Positions 1,458 to 17,639 of a DNA stretch of 25,927 nt are shown piece after piece. Under the pieces are notes generated by a model. That model did not search any database. It was given only the letters and a program-made list of their open reading frames with translations, and was not told the DNA's origin. The position numbers and the translations under genes were made by a program. Position 1 is the stretch's first letter. Each line of letters begins with the position of its first letter. The DNA is from a virus: positions 1-25,927 of the IMG/VR virus record IMGVR_UViG_3300042471_000501; one strand, 5' to 3'.

Positions 1458-1477
1458 TTCGTACCGTGTGGTACGGA
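1458..1477 (+). promoter_or_regulatory. Perfect short palindrome/hairpin after the RHH gene
   Basis: GTACC (1461-1465), GTGT loop and GGTAC (1470-1474) form a perfect inverted repeat. In RNA it extends to eight pairs (1458-1465 with 1470-1477, one G-U). It sits four bases after the stop of the ribbon-helix-helix gene. Possible roles are an operator for a dimeric binder or part of an RNA leader for the helicase gene. The palindrome is seen directly; its role is not known. Confidence 0.55.
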
Positions 1478-1482
1478 CAAAC

Positions 1483-1515
1483 CCCTCCGGCTGTCATGAA
1501 GCGGCAGTCGGAGGG
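1483..1515 (+). promoter_or_regulatory. Strong GC-rich RNA hairpin before the helicase start
   Basis: The left arm 1483-1495 (CCCTCCGGCTGTC) pairs with the right arm 1503-1515 (GGCAGTCGGAGGG) over 13 positions, with two G-U wobbles and a seven-base loop (ATGAAGC). It lies in the 77-base gap between the ribbon-helix-helix gene and the chosen helicase start at 1532. No T-run follows on the plus strand (the next bases are CCAAATTTCC), so it is not a textbook terminator. An attenuator, RNA-stabilising structure or translational control element is possible. Both the possible upstream helicase starts (1466, 1496) would fall in or before this structure. Confidence 0.6.
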
Positions 1516-6513: not shown

Positions 6514-6783
6514 TTACCATGCTTTGCAACTCCAGTGCCGAGGAGTCGTTTTATCGGTTGCCGTAGCGCAGTTATGCCGCGCGCGGAAATTCTTACGACG
6601 CTCAGGATTGTCGCGTTTGATTTCCATGTTCGGATCGCCGAACCGAACGATGACAACCTTGCCAGCCGGATTCTTGACGTACACCGCGCTCTTCTTCCGC
6701 TCTCCAGGAGTGTAGAACGGCTTGTTGAGCGTCACCTTACGCCCCTTGTAGGTGTTACCTTTTTTGGAGAGGGAGGTTTTCAT
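6514..6783 (-). CDS. Conserved basic phage protein with FRARHNC / WSCKAW motifs
   Basis: Encodes 89 aa. The middle reads VVIVRFGDPNMEIKRDNP, then ERRKNFRARHNC, DKTTPRHWSCKAW at the end. This motif set is strongly conserved in a family found in phages and sometimes fused or adjacent to structural genes; function is not established. The two cysteines and histidines could bind a metal ion. The start overlaps the 912-aa gene stop as ATGA. It is expressed with virion genes, so a structural or packaging-related role is a reasonable guess only. Confidence 0.7.
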   Translation of the reverse strand: MKTSLSKKGNTYKGRKVTLNKPFYTPGERKKSAVYVKNPAGKVVIVRFGDPNMEIKRDNPERRKNFRARHNCATATDKTTPRHWSCKAW

Positions 6784-9518
6784 GGCAGTTCGTTTTCAAC
6801 CTCAAGCGCCTGTCTGTACTCTTCGGAGTTTTTCCCAAACTCTTGCCTGATGGATTTAACAGTTTGAGACGTAACGTCTCGAAACAGATCGAGTGTCTGA
6901 GGATTTGAAAAGGTGACAAACCTTCCGGCGTCGATGTCTTTGATCGGAGTCATCGCAATTTTTCGAAGCTCTGGGTTGGTCAAAAATTTTGACGCAAACT
7001 TGTACCTTACCGCTGGCGCGCTGGTAACCACACGGGACAAAAATGAAAGCGCAGCCGGAAGAGTTCCTTGAGCAATGTTTCCACCTTGATATCCGACAAA
7101 AATGTAATTGATCAGACCACGATTTACATCGGACGCAGTTTTGGCTGGAACAGGGGTTTCTGCTATTGCCCGAGCAACTTTTTCAAGCTCCTGCCGCCCG
7201 TTGGTTCCAAGCAGCGTGTTGGCAGTTTCAAAGAATGGGCTGGCCACTCTTCCTGCGGTTCCAGGGCCAGCAGGTACACCGGCAGAAACCAAATTCAACA
7301 GCTTTTGACCATCGATGATATCTCCCGTTTTCGACTGACTCAACAGATCATCAATGAAGAGCGATTGAACATCGCGCAGCACATCGGGCTTTCTGGAGGA
7401 AAGTCGTGAAACAAGATTTGCGATCTTTGGTTGATTGTTTGGATCTGAAACAAACTTTGAAATATCGAACGAATTCCTCTCTACAAGTTTGTCCAAACCG
7501 AGTTTTGAAAGCTCCGCCTTTACCGACGCATCTTCCTGAACAGCCCGTTTAGCAAGCTGCTGAAGAGCGTTTTTATCGGTCGTGCCAAGCATCTGCTCAA
7601 CAAATCTAGGATCAGCATTAACAGAAGAAAGATACGCTTCTGGAGATTTAACTGCATTTCTGATATCACCCAAACGCGATTCAGAAATGAACGCGCTTCT
7701 CAGGTTTGCATAGTTTGGAAACAGCTTGTTTCTAACCGGCTCCGGCAACCCGTTAATCTTGCTGAACATTTCTCCGACATTGATTCCAGCGCCTTTTCTT
7801 CCAGCTTGAGACGCGGTGCTTACAATCGCCTCTTTAACAAGGTCCAACCCTTTTTGTGCGTTTGATGAACCAAGAAGATCCGTCAACATACCAAGATTAG
7901 TCTCGGCATTTGATCCTGTTAGACGCGAGATAATCGCCTCGCCAGACAGCCCTCCGCCTTCTCCAATCTCCTTTAGGATACCCTCGCTAAGGTTTCCCCT
8001 AAAACGTGTGATGTTTTGAGCGTAGTTTTGATTTGCAGCTCCAAGCGCTTGCTGGAGAGCTGGCGTTTGAGAGACAGCCTGATTGATCTGATTGGCAGCA
8101 ATCTCAGCAAGCTGAGCTTTTGTCCTGACATCAACCCCCGGCAAAACGCCGGATTGCCGAATCTGTCGAGAAAGGTTGGAGGCAAGATTTCTGGCTTCTT
8201 CAAGCGTTGCGGTGCTGACAAGATCCTCAGCCGCTGCAAGTGCCGCACGTTGGCCAGCAGGAGCAGCAATTACCGAAATGTTTCCTCCGGTGGTTTTTGC
8301 GAGATTTAATCCTGCTGAGTTGGCGTAATCAATCAGCGGCTGAAGATCAACGGCAGTTTGAGAGTATTCTGGAAGCGATTTTGCCTTGGTGTACGCTGCA
8401 TTCCAAGATGTTCTGGCCGACTCAAGAGAGTTTTCAGCGAGGTCTTTAAGATCGTTTCCAATTGAAGCAACGCTTCTTCCAGGCGCAAAAAATGACTTTC
8501 CAACCTGAAGCACACGTTGTTCAGCGTTGTTTACAGAGTTTGCAGCTCTTGACGCAAAGTCGTTCACAGCCATTTCCGCTTGCTTGCCAAGCCCCTGACG
8601 CTGCGGATCAAGAACATCAAAAACCTGCCTGCTGATTTCTTGGGGGGTACGGTTTCCTCTCGGCGTGTTAGCAGCTCGATGCAACGCAAGTTCGTAAATC
8701 TGCGTCATCGCTTCAGGGTCAGGCTCTGCACCCTCAAGCGCCATTTTCCTAGAAATCGATTTAGAATTTATCGCCTCAGCAAGCGAGATTGGAACCTGTT
8801 GGCCACTTGCGCTTTCAATGGTCTGAACAGACCTCAATGTTTTGAGTTGATCTGGAGTCAAATCAACGGGTCGAAAAAGATTCGCAACAGTCTCGTTGAT
8901 CAACCCAAGTTTACCGCCAAAAGCCTTTAATCCTGCCATGCCAACCCGAAGCGGCTCTCCAATAACAGGGCCAAGCACACCTCCGATTGCGGTTTGTTTA
9001 GCAACTTCGCCAACCGCTTCCGCTGGCTTGCCTTCAGTTGCAAGTTCTGCGGCTTTTGGGATTGAAGCACCTGCACCGCTAATTCCACCAAGAGCAGCTT
9101 GACCGCCAGTTCTTTGGAGCAGTTTTCCAGCCATTGCTGCGCGAGCAAGAGCCGGGAATCTAGCAGCAGCCATTTCTGGAGCAGCAAAACCAAGGGCTAT
9201 TGATGCTGCACCTTCTGGAACCGTTTCGTCAAACATCGACGGAGCACCCGCCGCAGCAAGTCGAGCCTCTTCCTCCTGCATCGCCTGACCCATGCGAGCA
9301 GCATCGCTCATGGTGGCCTGTTTAACCTGTTCGGGTGTTAGTGCGGAAACAAGGCCCTGCTCTTCACGGCGGCGCATCTCGCCAATGGTTGCCGATTGAT
9401 TTACAGCTTTAGCAAGTTGAGCGGATGAACCAACAGCCGCAACAGTTTCAACAGCTTGGACTGGCTTTGCAGAAGCCTCGTCAAGCACCTCAAAAGGTTG
9501 ATTCGGATCGAATGGCAT
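6780..9518 (-). CDS. Large internal virion/ejection-type protein (912 aa)
   Basis: Encodes 912 aa, the largest protein in the window. It is Ala/Gly/Leu/Gln rich and mostly helical. Residues about 105-190 are hydrophobic and Gly/Ala rich (GAASIALGFAAPEM, AIGGVLGPVIGEP) and could insert in membranes. No lytic transglycosylase motif was found by eye. It follows the 463-aa and 270-aa genes in transcription order, the position of the largest ejection protein in T7-like and P22-like phages. The start has CTCAATAATT before the ATG and no ribosome site. Composition is A/T richer than the packaging genes (one counted 60-base line at 7441 is 38% G+C). Confidence 0.6.
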   Translation of the reverse strand: MPFDPNQPFEVLDEASAKPVQAVETVAAVGSSAQLAKAVNQSATIGEMRRREEQGLVSALTPEQVKQATMSDAARMGQAMQEEEARLAAAGAPSMFDETVPEGAASIALGFAAPEMAAARFPALARAAMAGKLLQRTGGQAALGGISGAGASIPKAAELATEGKPAEAVGEVAKQTAIGGVLGPVIGEPLRVGMAGLKAFGGKLGLINETVANLFRPVDLTPDQLKTLRSVQTIESASGQQVPISLAEAINSKSISRKMALEGAEPDPEAMTQIYELALHRAANTPRGNRTPQEISRQVFDVLDPQRQGLGKQAEMAVNDFASRAANSVNNAEQRVLQVGKSFFAPGRSVASIGNDLKDLAENSLESARTSWNAAYTKAKSLPEYSQTAVDLQPLIDYANSAGLNLAKTTGGNISVIAAPAGQRAALAAAEDLVSTATLEEARNLASNLSRQIRQSGVLPGVDVRTKAQLAEIAANQINQAVSQTPALQQALGAANQNYAQNITRFRGNLSEGILKEIGEGGGLSGEAIISRLTGSNAETNLGMLTDLLGSSNAQKGLDLVKEAIVSTASQAGRKGAGINVGEMFSKINGLPEPVRNKLFPNYANLRSAFISESRLGDIRNAVKSPEAYLSSVNADPRFVEQMLGTTDKNALQQLAKRAVQEDASVKAELSKLGLDKLVERNSFDISKFVSDPNNQPKIANLVSRLSSRKPDVLRDVQSLFIDDLLSQSKTGDIIDGQKLLNLVSAGVPAGPGTAGRVASPFFETANTLLGTNGRQELEKVARAIAETPVPAKTASDVNRGLINYIFVGYQGGNIAQGTLPAALSFLSRVVTSAPAVRYKFASKFLTNPELRKIAMTPIKDIDAGRFVTFSNPQTLDLFRDVTSQTVKSIRQEFGKNSEEYRQALEVENELP

Positions 9519-9520
9519 AA

Positions 9521-10912
9521 TTATTGAGCAACCTCAACGTAAGTGTCGGTCGATTCGTCTAACTGATAGATTTTTCCACCTTGCCTGACGCGCTTTGGCT
9601 TTTGAGGCGCGGAAGGTTTTGGCTGGCCTTCAATTTTCAAAACCTCCTGTTCTCCGATGATTCCAAGCGGAGATTTCATTCGATCTTTTGCGTCTAGGAA
9701 AAGCGAACGAATCTCTGAAAGCGCCTGTTTCACCTGATCTGGGCTGGAAGTCAAAAAGCTCTGATTGATCAGCTCTTTAGCCCTTCGAGCATCAGCGTCG
9801 GTGAGTCGTCCAGTTTCTGAAAGAAGACCTCTAGCAACCAGTGGCGTCAAAGCACCAAGAGTGCGGTTCAATTTTGTCTGCGACGGATTCAACCCAAGTC
9901 CAACTTTAGCTCCTCCAATTGCCTGTCCAGCTTGTCGCAAAGCCCCAGGAATGCTGAACGCTTCATCGATATCTTTTGGATTAACGCTGTCGATCAAATC
10001 AAGAGCCGTATTGGCCGACTTGATTCCATTGAACAACTGGGTCTGGACTTGCTGCGGAAGCGCCTTCTTGAACTCAAATTCTCCAGAAGGGCCGACAATG
10101 ATATCCTGACCACTCTTAGCTGCGGCAGCTTTCAGAATCTGGAACTTGGCATCTTTTTGGTCTTCAGAAGCTCGTTGCCAGTCGGCCAATGCGGCGGTCA
10201 GCGGAGACTTGGAAGCTTGCTTGCTGGCAGCAGCAGCCTTAGCTATTTCACCCTCTTGAGCCGTCATTTTACCGGCAGCAACCATCAAGTCGATAGCCTC
10301 CGGTCCGCTACTTGAAGCAGCCGAGATTTTTGCCGCCGTTTCAAGGCCAGCTTGTTGAGCGGCCTTCTCGGACATACGAGGCGAAACAACGTCGATAATC
10401 GCTTTCGCCTTTACCGGATCAATCTGCCCGTACTCGTTCAACCCGTTGTTGTTCTGCCAAACAACATCGTACAGTCCGTTTTTATTGGCGAAACTGATAG
10501 CGTCAGAAAGCTGGTTTCCGATGATTTGTTTTGTCTCGTTGACGCCATTCATCAATCGGCGGCGAGTCGAAAAGTCATCAAGCTGCTGACGATACTGATT
10601 CAAAATGCCAATGTTCTTGGCAGATTTGACAGGCTTGAAAGTGGGAAACGGAGCGTTCGGATTGACGAAGAATTCATCAACAGCTTGCACGTTGAACGCC
10701 ATGTTATCGGCGTCAGCAAGCTCGTCCTCCTGATTCTTCATGGCACGACCCAGCTCAAAGGCCCGAATCTTGTTCTGAAGCTCCATTCCTTGACGCTGAA
10801 GCAAAGACTCAGCCGTCTGTTGCTGGAACTGCTCCATCATCCGCTTTTGCGTCTGCGCGCGGTCGTAGAGGCTTGCGCCTAGCTGAAATGCTTGAAGGGT
10901 TTCGTCGGCCAT
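9521..10912 (-). CDS. Structural/internal virion protein, coiled coil (463 aa)
   Basis: Encodes 463 aa. The N-terminal ~75 residues form a Gln/Met-rich helix (QKRMMEQFQQQTAESLLQRQ) typical of coiled coils. The middle is Ala/Lys/Ser-rich helix. The C-terminus has a Pro/Lys linker and a short beta end (GGKIYQLDESTDTYVEV). No enzyme motif is seen. It is the second of three adjacent helical proteins in the virion operon and is interpreted as an ejection or core protein by position. The start context is GCGTAATTTATG, with no Shine-Dalgarno site. Confidence 0.55.
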   Translation of the reverse strand: MADETLQAFQLGASLYDRAQTQKRMMEQFQQQTAESLLQRQGMELQNKIRAFELGRAMKNQEDELADADNMAFNVQAVDEFFVNPNAPFPTFKPVKSAKNIGILNQYRQQLDDFSTRRRLMNGVNETKQIIGNQLSDAISFANKNGLYDVVWQNNNGLNEYGQIDPVKAKAIIDVVSPRMSEKAAQQAGLETAAKISAASSSGPEAIDLMVAAGKMTAQEGEIAKAAAASKQASKSPLTAALADWQRASEDQKDAKFQILKAAAAKSGQDIIVGPSGEFEFKKALPQQVQTQLFNGIKSANTALDLIDSVNPKDIDEAFSIPGALRQAGQAIGGAKVGLGLNPSQTKLNRTLGALTPLVARGLLSETGRLTDADARRAKELINQSFLTSSPDQVKQALSEIRSLFLDAKDRMKSPLGIIGEQEVLKIEGQPKPSAPQKPKRVRQGGKIYQLDESTDTYVEVAQ

Positions 10913-10915
10913 AAA

Positions 10916-11728
10916 TTACGCCCAGTTAGAGTAGTCCGTAGGTCCGCCAATGTTGGTGGGAGGCAAAGCGTAAATCTCAGGATCATTCTGAGGATTGTAC
11001 GAACCGGGTTGATACGATGACGGCATCTGCTGCATCAACCCACGCTGGGTGTACGCGCCACCAGCGAATCCGCCAGCCTGCGAAATCGCGCTTCCAATAG
11101 CGGCCATCGTAGGATCGGGCATCGCAGCCACCTGAGCGGCTTGCAGGTTGCGATTGTACATCGCTTGCTGCTGCTGCTGCATCACTCCAACGCGCTGAGC
11201 AGGCGTGATGAACATGCTGCTCACCGAGAACGGCTGAGTCATGCCGTACGCTCGCTGCTGCTGGATGAAGTTCTGAGCTTGAGCCAGACCTTGATTCTGA
11301 AGCTGCAACGAAGTCAGTCCCAAGTCGCGCGCGGTCAAAGCTCGACCAAATCCAGATGCTCCACCGAATCCACCGGCAAGAGCGCGTCCAGCGGTCGAGC
11401 GTTGAACCTGAGCGGCAACATCGGTCGGCAACTCACCTTTTAGCGCAGAGCCAATGTTCTTGCTGGCCTGCTGAACAATCTGGTCATAACCAGGAATCGC
11501 ACGACGAAGCTGAGCCTCAAGCTGAGACTGTTCGGCAGCGGTTGTCTTTTGAGCGAGTTCGGTGGCAGGTTCGAGCGATGCGATGTTCTGCTGAATCGCT
11601 TGCCTCTGCTCTTGAGCGAAATCAATCGGCTTCAGCTCTGGAATCTTCGGCTTGCTTCCCTTGCTAAGAAGACCGCCAAGCAGACTCGTTCCACCGATGA
11701 TTGCCGCACCACCTAGAATAGCTCCCAT
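10916..11728 (-). CDS. Gly-rich N-terminus, Gln-rich virion protein (270 aa)
   Basis: Encodes 270 aa. It begins with a Gly/Ala/Leu hydrophobic segment (MGAILGGAAIIGGTSLLGGL), then long helices rich in Gln and Ala, a Gly-rich spacer (ALAGGFGGASGFG), and a run of glutamines (VMQQQQQAMY) encoded by a short CTG-type triplet run near 11166-11180. The C-terminus is Pro/Asn/Tyr rich and disordered-looking. The small hydrophobic-start protein ahead of two larger helical ones mimics the gp14-15-16 order of T7-like ejectosomes. The start context is TATTTTAATTTATG. Role inferred from position. Confidence 0.55.
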   Translation of the reverse strand: MGAILGGAAIIGGTSLLGGLLSKGSKPKIPELKPIDFAQEQRQAIQQNIASLEPATELAQKTTAAEQSQLEAQLRRAIPGYDQIVQQASKNIGSALKGELPTDVAAQVQRSTAGRALAGGFGGASGFGRALTARDLGLTSLQLQNQGLAQAQNFIQQQRAYGMTQPFSVSSMFITPAQRVGVMQQQQQAMYNRNLQAAQVAAMPDPTMAAIGSAISQAGGFAGGAYTQRGLMQQMPSSYQPGSYNPQNDPEIYALPPTNIGGPTDYSNWA

Positions 11729-11731
11729 AAA

Positions 11732-12277
11732 TTAAAATACCTCCTTCACAAGACGGTTGCCGTTCTCAATCGAGAACACCTTTTCAGGTTCGTGACGTTG
11801 GATGTTCATGGTAACCAGTCGTGCAGCCTTTTCCTCGGGAAAAGCTCGTTCGTTCTGGAAGCAATGAACCCACACACGCCGCAAAGTATCCACCTTAAAA
11901 AGCTCGTTCTCCTCGATTGTCATCACACCGTGGAGTGACGCCCACGCATCCGCGTACTCACGAAGCGCCTGAACCGAAGGAAGGTGAACTTCGTATCCGA
12001 ATCGCTCGGTGCATTCTTTGGCTGACGACTCAGGGTTCTTTTTGACGTACACCTTGATCGAGTCCTCAACGACAGCCTTTGGCAGATATCCGTAAGTCGA
12101 GCAGTCAGCGACGTACTTGTAACGAGTCCGGTATTCTTCAATCGACTGCTTCCAATTCGGATCAGTCGCGCCCTGCTCATGTAGGCCAAGGCAGTCCGCT
12201 TCCAACGAGAAAAGGACCGACATGAATGCCGATCCGAATCGAGGCAGACCGCAAATCTGGAAGAGCTTACCTTTCAT
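11732..12277 (-). CDS. Sulfotransferase-like P-loop protein
   Basis: Encodes 181 aa. The start, MKGKLFQICGLPRFGSAFMSVLFSL, resembles the 5'-phosphosulfate-binding loop of sulfotransferases (GLPRSGSxxL), but residue 14 is Phe where Ser is usual. LHEQGA and YVADCSTYGYLP at about residues 32-65 resemble the strands after that loop. The rest is helical with no firm match. If active it would move a sulfate group from PAPS to a sugar or protein; that is family knowledge and not proven here. It overlaps the citrate-synthase-like gene by 11 bases and sits between tail and ejection genes. It could also be a nucleotide-kinase-like P-loop protein. Confidence 0.5.
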   Translation of the reverse strand: MKGKLFQICGLPRFGSAFMSVLFSLEADCLGLHEQGATDPNWKQSIEEYRTRYKYVADCSTYGYLPKAVVEDSIKVYVKKNPESSAKECTERFGYEVHLPSVQALREYADAWASLHGVMTIEENELFKVDTLRRVWVHCFQNERAFPEEKAARLVTMNIQRHEPEKVFSIENGNRLVKEVF

Positions 12278-12833
12278 TTTTTATGCACAAAGAAGTCCAC
12301 GCGGCAGTGCGCGCGAGGATGAAGATGGCCGACTCAGCGCCGGGGATTACACCCAGCTCACTGCAAACGACCGCAGTGTAGAGCGCGGCATTTGGATGGA
12401 CGTTTTTGCCAGCTTCTTTCATCCACCCATGAAGCTGCTCAATGCGAGCGTTCGCGTTCGGAAAGTTGGACTTGATCAGCTCGCTAACACGGCTCCAAGC
12501 CGGATCGATTTGATCCTTGAAGAATGAGTTTCCGAAACCAGGAATCTTCATCCCAGCCTCGATTGCCGACTTCAACGCTCGTCCGTCGAATCGTTCGTAA
12601 ACGAATCGAGCAGGCCCAATCGGGCCGTGTGCATCGCCCAAAGTCAGGATTGCCGAGGCGATTCCATTCGTAAGCTGCGCGCTTCCAAAGAAAGCGTTTA
12701 CAGCAGCGCCGGAGCTAGAGTTCTGGTTGTTCCGAGCCGCCATGTCATGCGCGTCAAAAACAGCCTGAAGCAACTCCAACTTTTGAGGAGTCGCATCAGC
12801 CAGCGCAAAGTCGATATTGAGGTTTAGAACCAT
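12267..12833 (-). CDS. Truncated citrate-synthase-like protein, catalytic residues altered
   Basis: Encodes 188 aa that match the C-terminal, catalytic half of citrate synthases. HDMAARNNQNSSS parallels the HADHExNxST region, LGDAHGPIGPA parallels GPLHGGANE (H69), IPGFGNSFFKDQIDP parallels PGFGHxxY...DP, and VHPNAALYTAVVCSELG ... ILARTAAW parallels the YPNVDFYSG ... IARxxGW end. Two of the three classical catalytic positions are changed: the second His is Asn102 and the Asp is Ala150. The N-terminal half of the enzyme (about 180 residues) is missing. Citrate synthesis is therefore unlikely, and a binding or structural role is inferred. It overlaps both neighbours by about ten bases inside the virion operon. 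Confidence 0.6.
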   Translation of the reverse strand: MVLNLNIDFALADATPQKLELLQAVFDAHDMAARNNQNSSSGAAVNAFFGSAQLTNGIASAILTLGDAHGPIGPARFVYERFDGRALKSAIEAGMKIPGFGNSFFKDQIDPAWSRVSELIKSNFPNANARIEQLHGWMKEAGKNVHPNAALYTAVVCSELGVIPGAESAIFILARTAAWTSLCIKNER

Positions 12834-13795
12834 TGCGAAAACCCACCGCCATTCAACCCGACTCCGACCATTCGGATCGTGTGAACAGCGTCGCCCAAAT
12901 ACTGCATCGTCTGCTCCTGCACAGCTTGAACAGCTTTGGCTTCGTAGGCCACTGCTTCCTGAATCAAATCGTTCTCTTCCTTCCGAATCGCCATGACCAT
13001 CAGCTTGATGGCATCAGGACACGGAGGAATGAGGTAGTCATTCACGCTCGTCGCGTTGATGTGGCGCATCTTCGCCATCACCGTTACAGGCTTGTCCTCC
13101 TCGTTGTTGCAACGGTCAGCAAGATAGCTGCGACGATACTGCGGCAAAGTTTCATCGGGGTCGTAAACTGCCAGATCCGTCTCCAGAGCAGTCGTCGCAT
13201 TGTACTCGTACAAACGACTGACCGTGTTCGTCGCCTCACGAATGACTCCGGTCAGTTCGGTGAATTTCTTGGTAGACTGAACGTACGGCAAAGCGAGCGT
13301 CAGCTTCTCGCCGTCGATCCAGACTCCACCGCTTTGGGTTCGAATCCACTGCCCGTTCTGATCGACGCCCTGCAAGGTGATGGTTTTGCCGACATCCGAA
13401 GCGTCGCCAGGGTAGACTCGAAGATAGCTGTTAGTACCGCCAGACATGTCGCGGTAAGAAACCACAGTGCCACGGTCAATAAGCTGTTTGCCGACACACA
13501 CTTGGTTTCCATTGAGAAGTCCGTATCCGGTTTCCTGAAACTCGAACCATTGATTGCGAACGGTTCCGACTCCGCAGCAATCGGCGACAGCCTCAATCGT
13601 CTCGATCTGACGCGGCCAAGTGATGCAGCCACCGACCGTGTGGATCGTGAAACGTCCGTACGCACCGGCCCACAGACCCTTGTGAAGCAGTCGGCGGCAA
13701 GCCTGATTGATGTAGTCGTAAACGCGCGCGTCATCGACGCAAACGCCGATAGCCCGAGCAATCGTTGACCTGATATCTTGGACGATCAGCTTCAT
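12824..13795 (-). CDS. Tail adaptor/tubular-type virion protein
   Basis: Encodes 323 aa. The N-terminus (IRSTIARAIGV.VDDARVYDYINQACRRLL) is a helical start followed by TWPRQIETIEAVADCC and beta-rich middle segments (VVSYRDM, LRVYPGDASDVGKTITLQG). The C-terminal third is helical (KLMVMAIRKEENDLIQEAVAYEAKAV). Proteins of this layout are frequent near podovirus tail nozzle genes and are best explained as head-tail adaptor or tail tube proteins. No catalytic motif. It shares four bases with the upstream collar gene and overlaps the citrate-synthase-like gene by ten bases. Confidence 0.55.
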   Translation of the reverse strand: MKLIVQDIRSTIARAIGVCVDDARVYDYINQACRRLLHKGLWAGAYGRFTIHTVGGCITWPRQIETIEAVADCCGVGTVRNQWFEFQETGYGLLNGNQVCVGKQLIDRGTVVSYRDMSGGTNSYLRVYPGDASDVGKTITLQGVDQNGQWIRTQSGGVWIDGEKLTLALPYVQSTKKFTELTGVIREATNTVSRLYEYNATTALETDLAVYDPDETLPQYRRSYLADRCNNEEDKPVTVMAKMRHINATSVNDYLIPPCPDAIKLMVMAIRKEENDLIQEAVAYEAKAVQAVQEQTMQYLGDAVHTIRMVGVGLNGGGFSQWF

Positions 13796-14508
13796 TTGGT
13801 GTAGTAGACTCGGGCGGTTCGCTTGATGAAGTAAACACCGTAGAACGGCGGGAGATTATTATGCGCCGCATCACCGCCGGACGAAGTGGTCGGCAGCAGG
13901 TTGGCCACGCCTTCCGATCGGTTCGTCGCGCTGAACACACTCGTATCAGCCGATCCGCGCTGAGTAAGGTTGATGTACTGGTCGAGAATCTGATGCGTGT
14001 GCGACGGCATCTCGGAGGTAACAAGCGTGTGCTTGTCCTCGCCAGCAACAGCGGTCGAGGTGGTCGTTCCGTTGACGCTAACAACTCCGCTCGAAGCGAA
14101 CGTGCCAGCGCCAACCGGGAATCGAGCTTCGAACAAAGTGTCAACTTGCCACATCGGTCCTGACCAGTTGCTAGGAGCGTTGGTATTTCCACCGTCGTAA
14201 GTCTGAAGATCGGTGGTGGTTCCGACGTAGATGCGTCGCTCAGCAGATCCAGCGGCAATCGGATGCTGCCTCAGCCAGTAGCCGTCTTTGTAAATCCACC
14301 AGTTGCCGTTCTCGTCCAACCACGGATAAACCTGATTGTTTAGCGTCGGAGTCGTCGGTCCAAAGTTGAAGAACGAGTTCCCAATCGAGCTGTTGAAGTT
14401 CGCCTGAGTGCCGCTGATGACATCGTTGGCCAACTGCTGGTAGTTGGTCGGGCAATACCCGATGGGCAAACTCGGGGGCGTCAGCGTGATGAGCGTAAGG
14501 TTTGGCAT
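13792..14508 (-). CDS. Tail-collar domain fibre protein
   Basis: Encodes 238 aa. The C-terminal part carries the tail-collar signature: GEDKHTLVTSEMPSHTHQI (residues 157-174, H170 and H172) and the end GGDAAHNNLPPFYGVYFIKRTA. This is the domain of T4 short tail fibre-like and MdpB-like proteins, and the two His residues commonly bind metal in the trimer. The N-terminal half is Asn/Thr/Trp-rich beta structure. It is likely part of the adsorption apparatus. The start lies six bases downstream of the nozzle gene stop, with TTAAAACAGC before ATG and no Shine-Dalgarno site. Confidence 0.75.
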   Translation of the reverse strand: MPNLTLITLTPPSLPIGYCPTNYQQLANDVISGTQANFNSSIGNSFFNFGPTTPTLNNQVYPWLDENGNWWIYKDGYWLRQHPIAAGSAERRIYVGTTTDLQTYDGGNTNAPSNWSGPMWQVDTLFEARFPVGAGTFASSGVVSVNGTTTSTAVAGEDKHTLVTSEMPSHTHQILDQYINLTQRGSADTSVFSATNRSEGVANLLPTTSSGGDAAHNNLPPFYGVYFIKRTARVYYTK

Positions 14509-14514
14509 GCTGTT

Positions 14515-16377
14515 TTAAGGGTTAACGGCTTCCGAGGTGTAGGTCAGCGGGTTGATATCACAGACATCAAGCGGTGTGCAGGCCGGATACACCGTCCGGC
14601 ATTCACCAACACTCGGTTCCTGAACATCGTAAGCGTGAACTCGCAAGCTCTTGATCCGGCAATACCCGATGATGCTGAGCATCACCTGAACCTCGTAAAG
14701 GTTGCGAGCCGGTGTGCTGATAGTCTCGTTGCACGGCAGATCCGAAGGCGTCGGAAAACGCATCTTCGGACGATACTGCGGCTTGAAGTTCGTAATCGGG
14801 CAAAGATCGAAGCACTGCGTCGTCGTAGCGCACTCGGCAAAATCTACCCAGTCAATCCAGCCAGGATACTGATCAGGCCGGTAAGTAACATTGAACGAGA
14901 CATCGCCCTCAAGGGAGTCGATGAACAAGTCACCGGAATCCAAACGCTTCAGGCCAAACGGAACCTCGAAGTTGTAGGCTCTGGTTTGAACCAGCCATTC
15001 GATTTCCTTCTTACCCTCAGCGACGTTGTTGTCGAACTTGTCGCCCTTGGTAATCTCCCAGATTTGAATCGTTCCGTCCGATCCGCGAGCGATACAGAAG
15101 CACTGATCGCCGTAAGCATTCTCGGTCTTAACAACCTGAAGCGCATCAAGTCCGGTCCAGATTCCAGACCAAGCAGGCGGAAACTTTTTCCTCATCGAGG
15201 TGATGAGGTCCATGTCGAGTACGGCCAGCGCCTTGTGAATGACACCCTCGGCATCGTACCGAGGCTGACAGGTCATCAGTAACCGATTGTCGAACACGAC
15301 CGCAGAACTGGCCCACAGGAGATTCGTCTGATCGTTCTCAATGACGTTGAGCATCTCGCTGCTGATCGGGGTATTGCCCCAATCGGTGAACGAGCGTCGA
15401 GCGATGATAAACGAGCGAACACCATCGACAGCGCGGTAGAACACATCGCCATTGATGGTGATGGCGGAACGAGCGCCGAGTGCGCCGCTAGTCAGCAAGC
15501 TGATGGCCTGAATGGGATAGTTCAGGTTCTTCCAAACATCACGATCAACAGGCGCTTGAACCGAGAAGACGTATCGAGGAGTAAAGACTAAGAGCGGACC
15601 TTGGCCGAGCGAGGTGTCAGGATCGCCGGGGACAGCCATCGCCGTGATGCCGCCTGAATCCGACGGAACCGCAAAGTCTCCGCCTTCATTAAGGAAGGTG
15701 TTCTCGGTTTCTTTGAGAACACTGGCTCGCGTTCCATCCCCATAAACGATGTCAGTCGCACGGAAAGAGAATCCGTTCGGCAGCGCGTACCAGATGCGGC
15801 CATTGACGTAGGCCATGACCTTGCCGCACTTGATTTCATCATCCGCAGCACGACGCAGATTCGTCCCGTTGAAGATCAGTGGCCTGCTGAACCCGTCCTG
15901 AATGACGACGAAGTTCTCAGCCTGAACCATCCAGCCATCGAGTAGATTCGACGGATTCTTCAGGTCATCGGAAACGCTCAGGTTCTGTGCCTTGTTCTGA
16001 GCAACGTCGTAGAACCAAACTTCGCCGCTGATCAGCATCAGGATGAACGTGCGTCCATCGTCGGCAATGTAGGGCAGCGCGCACTGGAATGTGCCGGTAA
16101 GCGACTGAGGTCCGTAACAGTCTTCTGACCATCCATCAGCGGTGACGTTCGTCTGATCAGCGGTAACCTGATCGTTGTCAGCCGTGATGGTGACGCACAA
16201 GTCGTAATCCTTCTGAACGAAACCGGGTCGGCATGAGACAAACCCCTGCCGGAAGTTGGCGTTGACCGCGAACGCAACCTGATTCTTGTCCACCTCAGAC
16301 GGCATCACGCCAGCGTCAATGCCACCCTCAAAGGTGACAGTTCCGTCCGTGTACCTCCGTGGCGCGCGTTCGCTCAT
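14515..16377 (-). CDS. Tail nozzle/hub-like beta-propeller protein (620 aa)
   Basis: Encodes 620 aa, rich in beta structure throughout: FEGGIDAGVMPSEVDKNQVAFAVNANF at the start, many WFYDV, GRIWYAL, LLVFTPRYVFSV and GTIQIWEI repeats, and a Cys-rich C-terminus (ECATTTQCFDLCP, VGECRTVYPACTPLDVC). Such long propeller-type proteins are found as tail nozzle or hub proteins in podoviruses (T7 gp12, P22 gp10 type). The N-terminal phrase and 'GGIDAG' start are typical of that group, but the assignment is by architecture only. It lies between the fibre and the collar gene. Confidence 0.55.
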   Translation of the reverse strand: MSERAPRRYTDGTVTFEGGIDAGVMPSEVDKNQVAFAVNANFRQGFVSCRPGFVQKDYDLCVTITADNDQVTADQTNVTADGWSEDCYGPQSLTGTFQCALPYIADDGRTFILMLISGEVWFYDVAQNKAQNLSVSDDLKNPSNLLDGWMVQAENFVVIQDGFSRPLIFNGTNLRRAADDEIKCGKVMAYVNGRIWYALPNGFSFRATDIVYGDGTRASVLKETENTFLNEGGDFAVPSDSGGITAMAVPGDPDTSLGQGPLLVFTPRYVFSVQAPVDRDVWKNLNYPIQAISLLTSGALGARSAITINGDVFYRAVDGVRSFIIARRSFTDWGNTPISSEMLNVIENDQTNLLWASSAVVFDNRLLMTCQPRYDAEGVIHKALAVLDMDLITSMRKKFPPAWSGIWTGLDALQVVKTENAYGDQCFCIARGSDGTIQIWEITKGDKFDNNVAEGKKEIEWLVQTRAYNFEVPFGLKRLDSGDLFIDSLEGDVSFNVTYRPDQYPGWIDWVDFAECATTTQCFDLCPITNFKPQYRPKMRFPTPSDLPCNETISTPARNLYEVQVMLSIIGYCRIKSLRVHAYDVQEPSVGECRTVYPACTPLDVCDINPLTYTSEAVNP

Positions 16378-16382
16378 GGTTT

Positions 16383-17585
16383 TTAAGCCTGAATCCGCTG
16401 AACAGAGAATGAGGAGCCGGTTTGGACGTCAAGATCGTGTCCGGTTGTCTGGATCAAGATATCGTAGTAATCGCTAGCCGACGCAGCTTGATCGATGTAA
16501 GAAAACGAAACAGGCGGTAACGCTTGGGAAGAGTTTGCGCTAACATTAAACGATAGGCTCTGAAAAATGTTAGACCCATTTTTCCTCAAGAAAACGACAA
16601 CCTGAGCGGTGTTGCCGTCCGCCAGCAAATTGAACAAGCCTTCAATTTTGTAGTATCCAGTGTATGGAACTGCAAATCGACCTGTAGCAGCGACAAAGCC
16701 TGAAGACGGATCTAGGTTTGTCCAAGATCCAGAGGGAAAGTCTCCAAGGCTAAACGGATTCTTGGTGGTTCCAGACGCAATGCGATTTGATCCGGTAGCC
16801 CTCCGCGTAAACGTGACATAGCTGAACGGAACAATCGACGGAGCCGACAGTGTGATGTTTCCTGCGCTGTTCGTAACGACAATCGGAAGCGTTCCGACAA
16901 TCTCCTTCTGGAGATAGGTCGAACCATCGCCCACCGGAATCTTATTCAGCGGAGCGGTCGTCAGGTTCGTGCCACCCTTGGCAATCGGAACCGTGCCGGT
17001 GACATCAGCAATCGGAATCGTGGCAACCGTTGAAACCGCACCAAAACCGCTCGACCCTTGAGTCTTGAGATATCCAGCCGACAGCGAATCAAGAGCAGTC
17101 TCATTCGTCAGCGTGGCATCAGCGGTGCGGCAAATGTAGGACGCGCCAACCGGAGCGCCACCCGATGCACCAGCAGCACCAGTCGCCCCAATCGCACCGG
17201 CCAGGGTAATGAGCGAACCAGTCGGAATCAGCGTAGTCGGAACAGCGTTGGCGATTCCAAGAACACCCGCAGCAGGGTTTTGAAGCGTCAGTTGCAGTCC
17301 ATCAACCGACAGCACCTGCATGTAGCCAAGACCCTGAATCGAGACGAAGAACTGGCCAGCAACCGATTCCGGTAGAAATTCGGTATTATCAACGAAAACG
17401 AGGACACTCGAACCGAGAGCAGGGACGAAAAACGGAGCGGTCGTGTAGGTAAACGAGTCAATTCCGTCCGTTCCATTGGTGCCGTTGGTTCCAGCCGGAC
17501 CTTGAGGGCCGGGGATATTCACGACAACCGGCTCGGAGTCGCAAGGCTGGCAACAGCCGGATGAAGAAACAAGTTGCGACGGCAT
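16383..17585 (-). CDS. Tail fibre with collagen-like repeats and C1q-like tip
   Basis: Encodes 400 aa from ATG 17585, which has AAGGA five to six bases upstream; ATG 17609 is in frame but lies before that site. An N-terminal Cys cluster (GCCQPCDSEP) is followed by Gly-X-Y repeats GPQGPAGTNGTNGTDG (residues 26-41) and a second set GAIGATGAAGASGG (130-143). A KGGTNL segment typical of fibre shafts follows. The last ~140 residues have the C1q/TNF-type jelly-roll pattern (AVPYTGYYKIEG, VVVFLRKNGSNI). It likely trimerises and binds the host. It is the first gene of the leftward operon and diverges from the terminase gene. Confidence 0.8.
   Translation of the reverse strand: MPSQLVSSSGCCQPCDSEPVVVNIPGPQGPAGTNGTNGTDGIDSFTYTTAPFFVPALGSSVLVFVDNTEFLPESVAGQFFVSIQGLGYMQVLSVDGLQLTLQNPAAGVLGIANAVPTTLIPTGSLITLAGAIGATGAAGASGGAPVGASYICRTADATLTNETALDSLSAGYLKTQGSSGFGAVSTVATIPIADVTGTVPIAKGGTNLTTAPLNKIPVGDGSTYLQKEIVGTLPIVVTNSAGNITLSAPSIVPFSYVTFTRRATGSNRIASGTTKNPFSLGDFPSGSWTNLDPSSGFVAATGRFAVPYTGYYKIEGLFNLLADGNTAQVVVFLRKNGSNIFQSLSFNVSANSSQALPPVSFSYIDQAASASDYYDILIQTTGHDLDVQTGSSFSVQRIQA
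17466..17510 (-). repeat. Collagen-like Gly-X-Y repeat, first block of the tail fibre
   Basis: This part of the fibre gene encodes GPQGPAGTNGTNGTDG, five consecutive Gly-X-Y triplets. Such repeats form a trimeric collagen-like stalk in phage and bacterial fibres. A second block (GAIGATGAAGASGG) lies further into the same gene, around 17155-17197. Confidence 0.75.
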
Positions 17586-17639
17586 ATTTTTCCTTTGCCA
17601 GACGGTCAAGTCCAGAGTGAACTATTGCAAGGCCAAACT
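17586..17639. promoter_or_regulatory. Divergent intergenic region between the fibre and terminase genes
   Basis: This 54-base gap is the only place where transcription diverges, so it should hold promoters for both the leftward virion operon and the rightward packaging operon, unless these lie within the flanking genes. It also contains the ribosome sites: AAGGA for the fibre (reverse strand) and CAAGG for the terminase. A TTGCCA at 17595-17600 resembles a -35 box, but no good -10 follows at proper spacing. No promoter is called. Confidence 0.4.

Follow-up and report, generated by a model that had tools for sequence, protein, structure and literature searches.

The window analyzed here is the whole of a 25,927-nucleotide stretch of viral DNA (IMG/VR record IMGVR_UViG_3300042471_000501). 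On its plus strand, an Arc-like ribbon–helix–helix (RHH) gene (1272–1454; phrog_3180 Arc-like repressor, E 6.2e-5; Pfam 56B_RHH, E 5.2e-4, below the cut-off) precedes a superfamily 2 helicase gene (1532–2611; phrog_16 DNA helicase, E 6.3e-44; Pfam ResIII and Helicase_C). The start of a single-strand binding protein (SSB) gene (2608–2952; Pfam SSB, E 4.7e-13 on the frame 2575–2949) overlaps the helicase stop by four bases, and a primase is also among the neighbors. Neighboring genes mostly overlap by four bases, as the preliminary description held, although only narrowly so: 5 of the 8 other assigned junctions between 334 and 3420 have this arrangement. Between the RHH stop (TAG, 1452–1454) and the helicase ATG at 1532 lies a gap of 77 bases.

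This gap contains two hairpins on the plus strand. After a short 5′ flank (CGA, 1455–1457), hairpin 1 (1458–1477) pairs 1458–1465 with 1470–1477—eight pairs in RNA, including one G-U—around the loop GTGT (1466–1469). An ACAA tail (1477–1480) lies on its 3′ side and, across a five-base spacer from hairpin 1, hairpin 2 (1483–1515) pairs 1483–1495 with 1503–1515 through 13 pairs (11 Watson–Crick, two G-U) around the loop ATGAAGC (1496–1502). An A/U-rich open linker (1516–1531) runs from there to the helicase ATG. The tandem hairpins of the preliminary description, with their coordinates, pairs, loops, spacer, and gap, were all reproduced.

The predicted fold is stronger than that of shuffled controls, both for 1440–1560 (z-score −4.48) and for the element alone (1455–1534; z-score −5.14), with 0 of 200 shuffles as good in either case. 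Within the window, the double hairpin is the top nonoverlapping fold of both strands at 34, 60, and 80 bases. Among nonoverlapping 64-base folds of both strands, its rank is 8th, 4th, and 8th in three longer phage records; fold strength alone is therefore not distinctive, and conservation is the distinguishing mark.

Pairing and strand across related phages

The best 80 of 118 viral relatives from a first helicase search yielded a full leader at 73 loci, which together with the window gave 74 sequences, 38 of them distinct. These 38 form the alignment used below, which omits one cut locus (L011) and six loci without hairpin 1; L001 and L002 are the same contig. Across the 38 distinct leaders, 96.4% of pair cells are kept and two-sided changes occur at 9 of 21 pairs. 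Cells changed on both sides number 70, against 19.2 in alignment shuffles, of which 0 of 500 reach 70; these shuffles ignore kinship, so this count is not a probability, and controls in which the structure was slid along the alignment agree, with just 35.8–59.1% paired. RNAalifold independently recovers both helices from the alignment. Along the helicase tree, we counted 37 double changes—a number that recombination between leader and helicase may inflate—along with 15 single changes that kept pairing and six to an unpaired state. Selection on the pairing of both hairpins, and with it a real functional RNA structure, is thus strongly supported by covariation among relatives, one of the checks named in the preliminary description.

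The two hairpins contribute differently. Hairpin 2 has 99.0% of its cells paired and two-sided changes at 5 of 13 pairs; hairpin 1 has such changes at 4 of 8 pairs. Its outer, eighth pair is kept in only 19 of the 38 leaders, and one inner pair is broken in 5 of 38. The eight-pair stem that the preliminary description gave for hairpin 1 therefore holds in the window and not as a conserved unit, the conserved core being seven pairs (1459–1465 with 1470–1476). Two further pairings were set aside: a third helix, joining the 5′ flank to UUUCC, is seen in some individual folds and is absent from the RNAalifold prediction, and base pairs between UGU in the hairpin 1 loop and the ACA next to it were judged sterically impossible in cis.

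Paired cells of the alignment include 139 G-T and 7 A-C combinations, which identifies the helicase-sense strand as the folding molecule. This bias argues against a structure on the other strand and against an operator in duplex DNA, such as one for the RHH protein, since a duplex would not distinguish the strands. Inverted repeats are usual for dimeric repressors and the RHH gene is the immediate upstream neighbor in 109 of 117 loci; the RHH gene and hairpin 1 nevertheless each occur without the other, and we regard an operator as barely credible. Single-stranded DNA hairpins on the plus strand, such as a replication or priming site, stay formally compatible with the bias because G-T pairs form in single-stranded DNA too, and the replication genes alongside would suit such a role. 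In three records, however, GC skew shows no prominent sign change at the element, and a DNA site offers no reason for the codon spacings described below, so that we hold this explanation to be very improbable.

A wider set was used for the anatomy of each hairpin. Its 117 loci, window included, pool three rounds of helicase search (the second taking the best 80 of 104 relatives) with contig repeats removed; nine loci were left out, seven truncated before the leader (L222 and L230–L235) together with L169 and L237. A scan for [GT]TGTG with at least six of seven pairs found hairpin 1 in 100 of the 117, as 24 distinct strings, and the loop counts hold for scan matches only. Among these strings, the closing C-G pair and the CG of the 5′ flank are kept in 24 of 24, the loop is GTGT in 18 and TTGT in 6, the 3′ arm is seven bases long, and the ACAA abutting that arm is present in 21. 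Hairpin 1 extends as far as L170 and L171, whose helicases are 72–73% identical to the second-round search query. The 17 loci missed by the scan were read by eye: two are cut, 11 have hairpin 2 only, and four have neither, so that neither hairpin is indispensable throughout the relatives.

Hairpin 2 retains about 13 pairs while its letters vary, and among the wider relatives L134, L136, L146, L148, and L170 have other loops in place of ATGAAGC. Set against this freedom, the fixed design of hairpin 1 leads us to infer a division of labor in which hairpin 1 would be the recognition part and hairpin 2 the structural part. At L170, the stop codon of the upstream frame (777–992) is a TGA within hairpin 1, its T being the final base of the loop and its GA the beginning of the 3′ arm; ribosomes translating that frame would traverse the hairpin 1 5′ arm.

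Gene context and a displaced leader

The gene order around the leader is largely constant. Besides the RHH gene upstream, an SSB gene follows the helicase in 113 of 117 loci and is missing from none with enough sequence. The RHH gene occurs without hairpin 1 at the 11 hairpin-2-only loci and at L236, and hairpin 1 occurs without an RHH match at L170–L172. Where the upstream frame overlaps the helicase start, the leader is absent. This is the case at L236, where the RHH frame extends over that start, and in the nearest isolate, Verrucomicrobia phage P8625 (helicase 34% identical), where the helicase overlaps the preceding gene by four bases.

One locus, L154, carries an insertion. There the entire leader runs up to the ATG of a queC-like gene (QueC, E 1.7e-50); next come a PTPS/queD-like gene (E 6.7e-34), a phrog_15826 gene of unknown function, and only then the helicase, which overlaps the preceding cassette gene by four bases. 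Because the cassette sits exactly between leader and helicase, the leader is a start unit that can be moved, distinct from the helicase gene itself, and it can serve a different gene that follows it. When the linker was sought ahead of genes other than this helicase, the L154 contig was the sole match. The cassette itself (L154:456–2004; IMGVR_UViG_3300011336_000466) points to deazaguanine synthesis.

We also searched 23 whole phage records, the L154 record not among them, with a covariance model of the leader. The best match lies before the helicase in each, strong in 19 and weak in 4, the weak ones being the hairpin-2-only group; in the records searched, the leader is thus a single-copy element, strong outside that group. 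Besides these best matches, whole records gave three more weak ones (E 0.011, 1.05, and 1.34). The first of them (G015:C1:29778–29859, minus strand; 17.4 bits) is far from the helicase. In genome contigs, 0 of 14 candidates was a relative of the helicase; five contigs with the linker pattern score 17.6–21.2 bits against the model, probably by chance.

Two observations concern other parts of these genomes. The helicase gene is split near residue 89 by an insert in L224, L225, L238, L228, and L229, and an Intein_splicing match was found in both proteins scanned (L224, E 1.6e-9, above the cut-off; L229, E 1.4e-7, below it). In the window, a long block of large minus-strand frames occupies 6780–17609; tail-like PHROG matches were found in one of the seven frames scanned, the other six having no match.

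Spacing to the stop and start codons

The element is closely tied to the codons on both sides. The upstream stop codon lies 4–8 bases 5′ of the hairpin 1 core in 92 of 97 loci (4 in the window), and the end of hairpin 2 lies 16–17 bases from the ATG in 49 of 59 distinct leaders. Outlying values of the latter distance (6, 11, and 13 nt) arise partly from extra outer pairs in single folds; one leader containing an N (L071) was excluded from the 59-leader counts of spacing, T-runs, and Shine–Dalgarno letters. Hairpin 2 leaves the start codon uncovered. The linker between them is conserved in the alignment of relatives and mostly open, with a median unpaired probability of 0.69 from −16 to +12 (70 distinct leaders). 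Within the helicase gene, synonymous variation is low in codons 2–12 (0.18, vs. 0.41 in codons 51–100).

These features suggest that the linker (1516–1531) is probably a start region without a Shine–Dalgarno motif. Such motifs are rare in this phage: GGAG, GAGG, or AGGA occurs within 25 bases upstream of 7 of the 31 listed starts in the window, a count that includes the helicase's own distant motif, 17–18 nt from its ATG. Neither GGAG nor GAGG is present in the hairpin arm examined in 17 of the 59 distinct leaders. A switch that sequesters the Shine–Dalgarno sequence is contradicted by this lack of conservation of the letters; among the three roles envisaged in the preliminary description (attenuator, RNase processing site, and translational switch), the anatomy favors an action on translation over attenuation.

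Other reading frames were considered across the gap. Initiation at GTG 1466, which the preliminary description had named as the case against its proposal, is unsupported: an in-frame stop occurs at most 16 codons upstream of the helicase ATG in 76 of 80 untruncated loci, and L002, L015, L025, and the window are the only ones whose frame stays open far upstream. ATG 1496 was rejected as the helicase start for the same reason, upstream starts being excluded in relatives. A small ORF beginning at the ATG of the hairpin 2 loop carries no coding sign: its stops differ (after 3 codons in L003 and after 10 in L029), and ATGAAGC is lost in L134, L136, L146, and L148.

An intrinsic terminator was rejected, in line with the earlier judgment that a plain terminator is unlikely: the eight bases after hairpin 2 contain 2–4 T in 58 of the 59 distinct leaders and five in one, which is no T-run, and the terminator scan did not report the site. 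The same lack of a T-run bears on the broader proposal that the element acts on the transcribing RNA polymerase, as an attenuator or as an antiterminator like put of phage HK022. The put RNA is reported to consist of two adjacent stem-loops over ~60–70 nt that act in cis in the phage early transcript (PMC9378689). The present element resembles it in outline, with two neighboring stem-loops within ~70 nt (over ~60 nt); it stands ahead of the remaining operon and holds that position even where a different gene follows, as in L154. However, put follows an early promoter and its stems have several bulges, a triplex, and conserved letters, whereas hairpin 2 here is a regular stem of 13 unbroken pairs with free letters and the element is tied to a start codon and not to a promoter. 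An action on RNA polymerase, which we rank second among the rivals, is therefore quite unlikely.

Known leaders and a proposed role

No Rfam 15 family matches the window at the gathering threshold, and a permissive search of 1380–1620 returned only P35, on the other strand (15.9 bits vs. a threshold of 70; E 4.3). The literature searched, with partial coverage, yielded no published account of the leader. Based on its sequence and conservation, the element is a previously unnamed structured phage mRNA leader.

The main rival to a role in translation is mRNA processing or stabilization, in which a nuclease would cut near the upstream stop or at a hairpin and the hairpins would protect RNA ends, either the 5′ end of the helicase–SSB message or the 3′ end of the upstream message. 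The Escherichia coli ompA leader has the order hairpin, spacer, hairpin, and open start region, which is the layout found here; it lies at an mRNA 5′ end, whereas the present element lies between genes, 4–8 nt after a stop codon. Stem-loops in 5′ leaders are reported to protect mRNAs, in a source that also mentions ompA mRNA stability (PMC7509114). The portability observed in L154 would fit processing as well, and the fixed flanks of hairpin 1 could form a nuclease site. Processing has no need, however, for the strict 16–17-nt spacing to the start codon or for a conserved linker, and the element is embedded within a series of co-directional genes, where a scan for sigma-70 types gave no promoter-like match immediately 5′ of it on the plus strand. 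On this balance we consider processing somewhat unlikely, ahead of action on RNA polymerase and of a DNA-strand role, which ranks third.

Among phage leaders, the operator of gene 32 (SSB) in T4 and RB69 offers a comparison, being somewhat alike in how it works: a folded part is followed by an open A/U-rich stretch where the ribosome starts (PMC535899). Our element shares the placement of folded RNA 5′ of an open A/U-rich start region before a replication gene, and a foreign gene can lie beside it (segG in T4, the L154 cassette here). The folded part in T4 is a pseudoknot; here, two nested, plain hairpins account for the covariation in the alignment and in RNAalifold, and no pseudoknot was seen in these nested folds. 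The open part measures 16–17 nt (49 of 59 leaders) against >40 nt in T4, the window linker has no UAAA in place of the UUAAA/UAAA repeats, and the helicase comes next with SSB second, whereas the T4 operator precedes SSB itself and is bound and repressed by that protein. Since at least one tested defining feature is absent, we do not file the leader under the T4 gene 32 type.

We propose, with a probability of roughly 45%, that the element acts in cis as an mRNA leader, keeping helicase initiation apart from translation of the upstream gene, with one of its hairpins serving for recognition. It would lie inside a polycistronic early mRNA, with hairpin 2 as a rigid block just beyond the footprint of a ribosome initiating at the helicase. 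Helicase initiation would thereby be kept separate from ribosomes finishing the upstream gene, while the overlapping genes nearby are presumably coupled. Hairpin 1—its seven-pair stem, G/U-UGU loop, and ACAA tail—would be recognized by a phage or host factor, and binding could raise or lower initiation and with it the dose of the helicase and of the SSB presumably coupled behind it.

Several lines of evidence are counted for this proposal: the covariation of both hairpins, the strand bias, the spacings to both codons, and the L154 leader before a queC-like gene, together with the fixed hairpin 1 loop, arm length, and ACAA, the open A/U-rich linker, the low synonymous variation in codons 2–12, and the missing leader in L236 and P8625, in which the preceding gene reaches over the helicase start. 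Counted against it are the 11 loci that retain hairpin 2 alone, the four with neither hairpin, and the position of hairpin 2, which does not cover the start codon. A ribosome covers about 15 bases on each side of its P site, a general figure not taken from this host; combined with the observed spacings, it implies that the hairpins would fill the remainder between a terminating and an initiating ribosome. According to a review, predicted structure directly after an upstream stop correlates negatively with coupling (PMC12548453), which fits the separation of the helicase from upstream translation.

A more specific version of this proposal would make the element a dedicated ribosome-spacer RNA, its hairpins sized to the gap between ribosomes so as to cut coupling inside an otherwise coupled operon, with hairpin 1 as an adjustable gate that would respond either to termination upstream or to a specific ligand. 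We know of no described class of ribosome-spacer RNA, and rate this version as unlikely.

Gene control in uncultured phages of this kind is little known, and the leader gives them a structured RNA with good support, for which there are a covariance model and dozens of naturally occurring variants. If the separation of helicase initiation holds, it would represent one independently controlled gene within a coupled run, achieved without a promoter, a Shine–Dalgarno motif, or a terminator. In hairpin 1, the fixed loop and tail form a concrete bait for a candidate binding partner, and the L154 insertion offers a leader naturally moved before another gene.

A further group of loci with the same helicase family (L169, L239–L293, and L296; the L169 type) also has a strong GC hairpin before the helicase start. 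Its leader differs in sequence and order, with one GC hairpin and then a short AGCG/CGCT hairpin that abuts the ATG; a z-score of −2.04 was obtained for the single stretch folded, and our leader model matches it weakly (L239, 18.5 bits, E 0.03; L169, 11.7 bits, E 2.8). AAACAAAAG, which on the opposite strand resembles a terminator tail, precedes the L169-type GC hairpin, GCCCCCGG..CCGGGGG.
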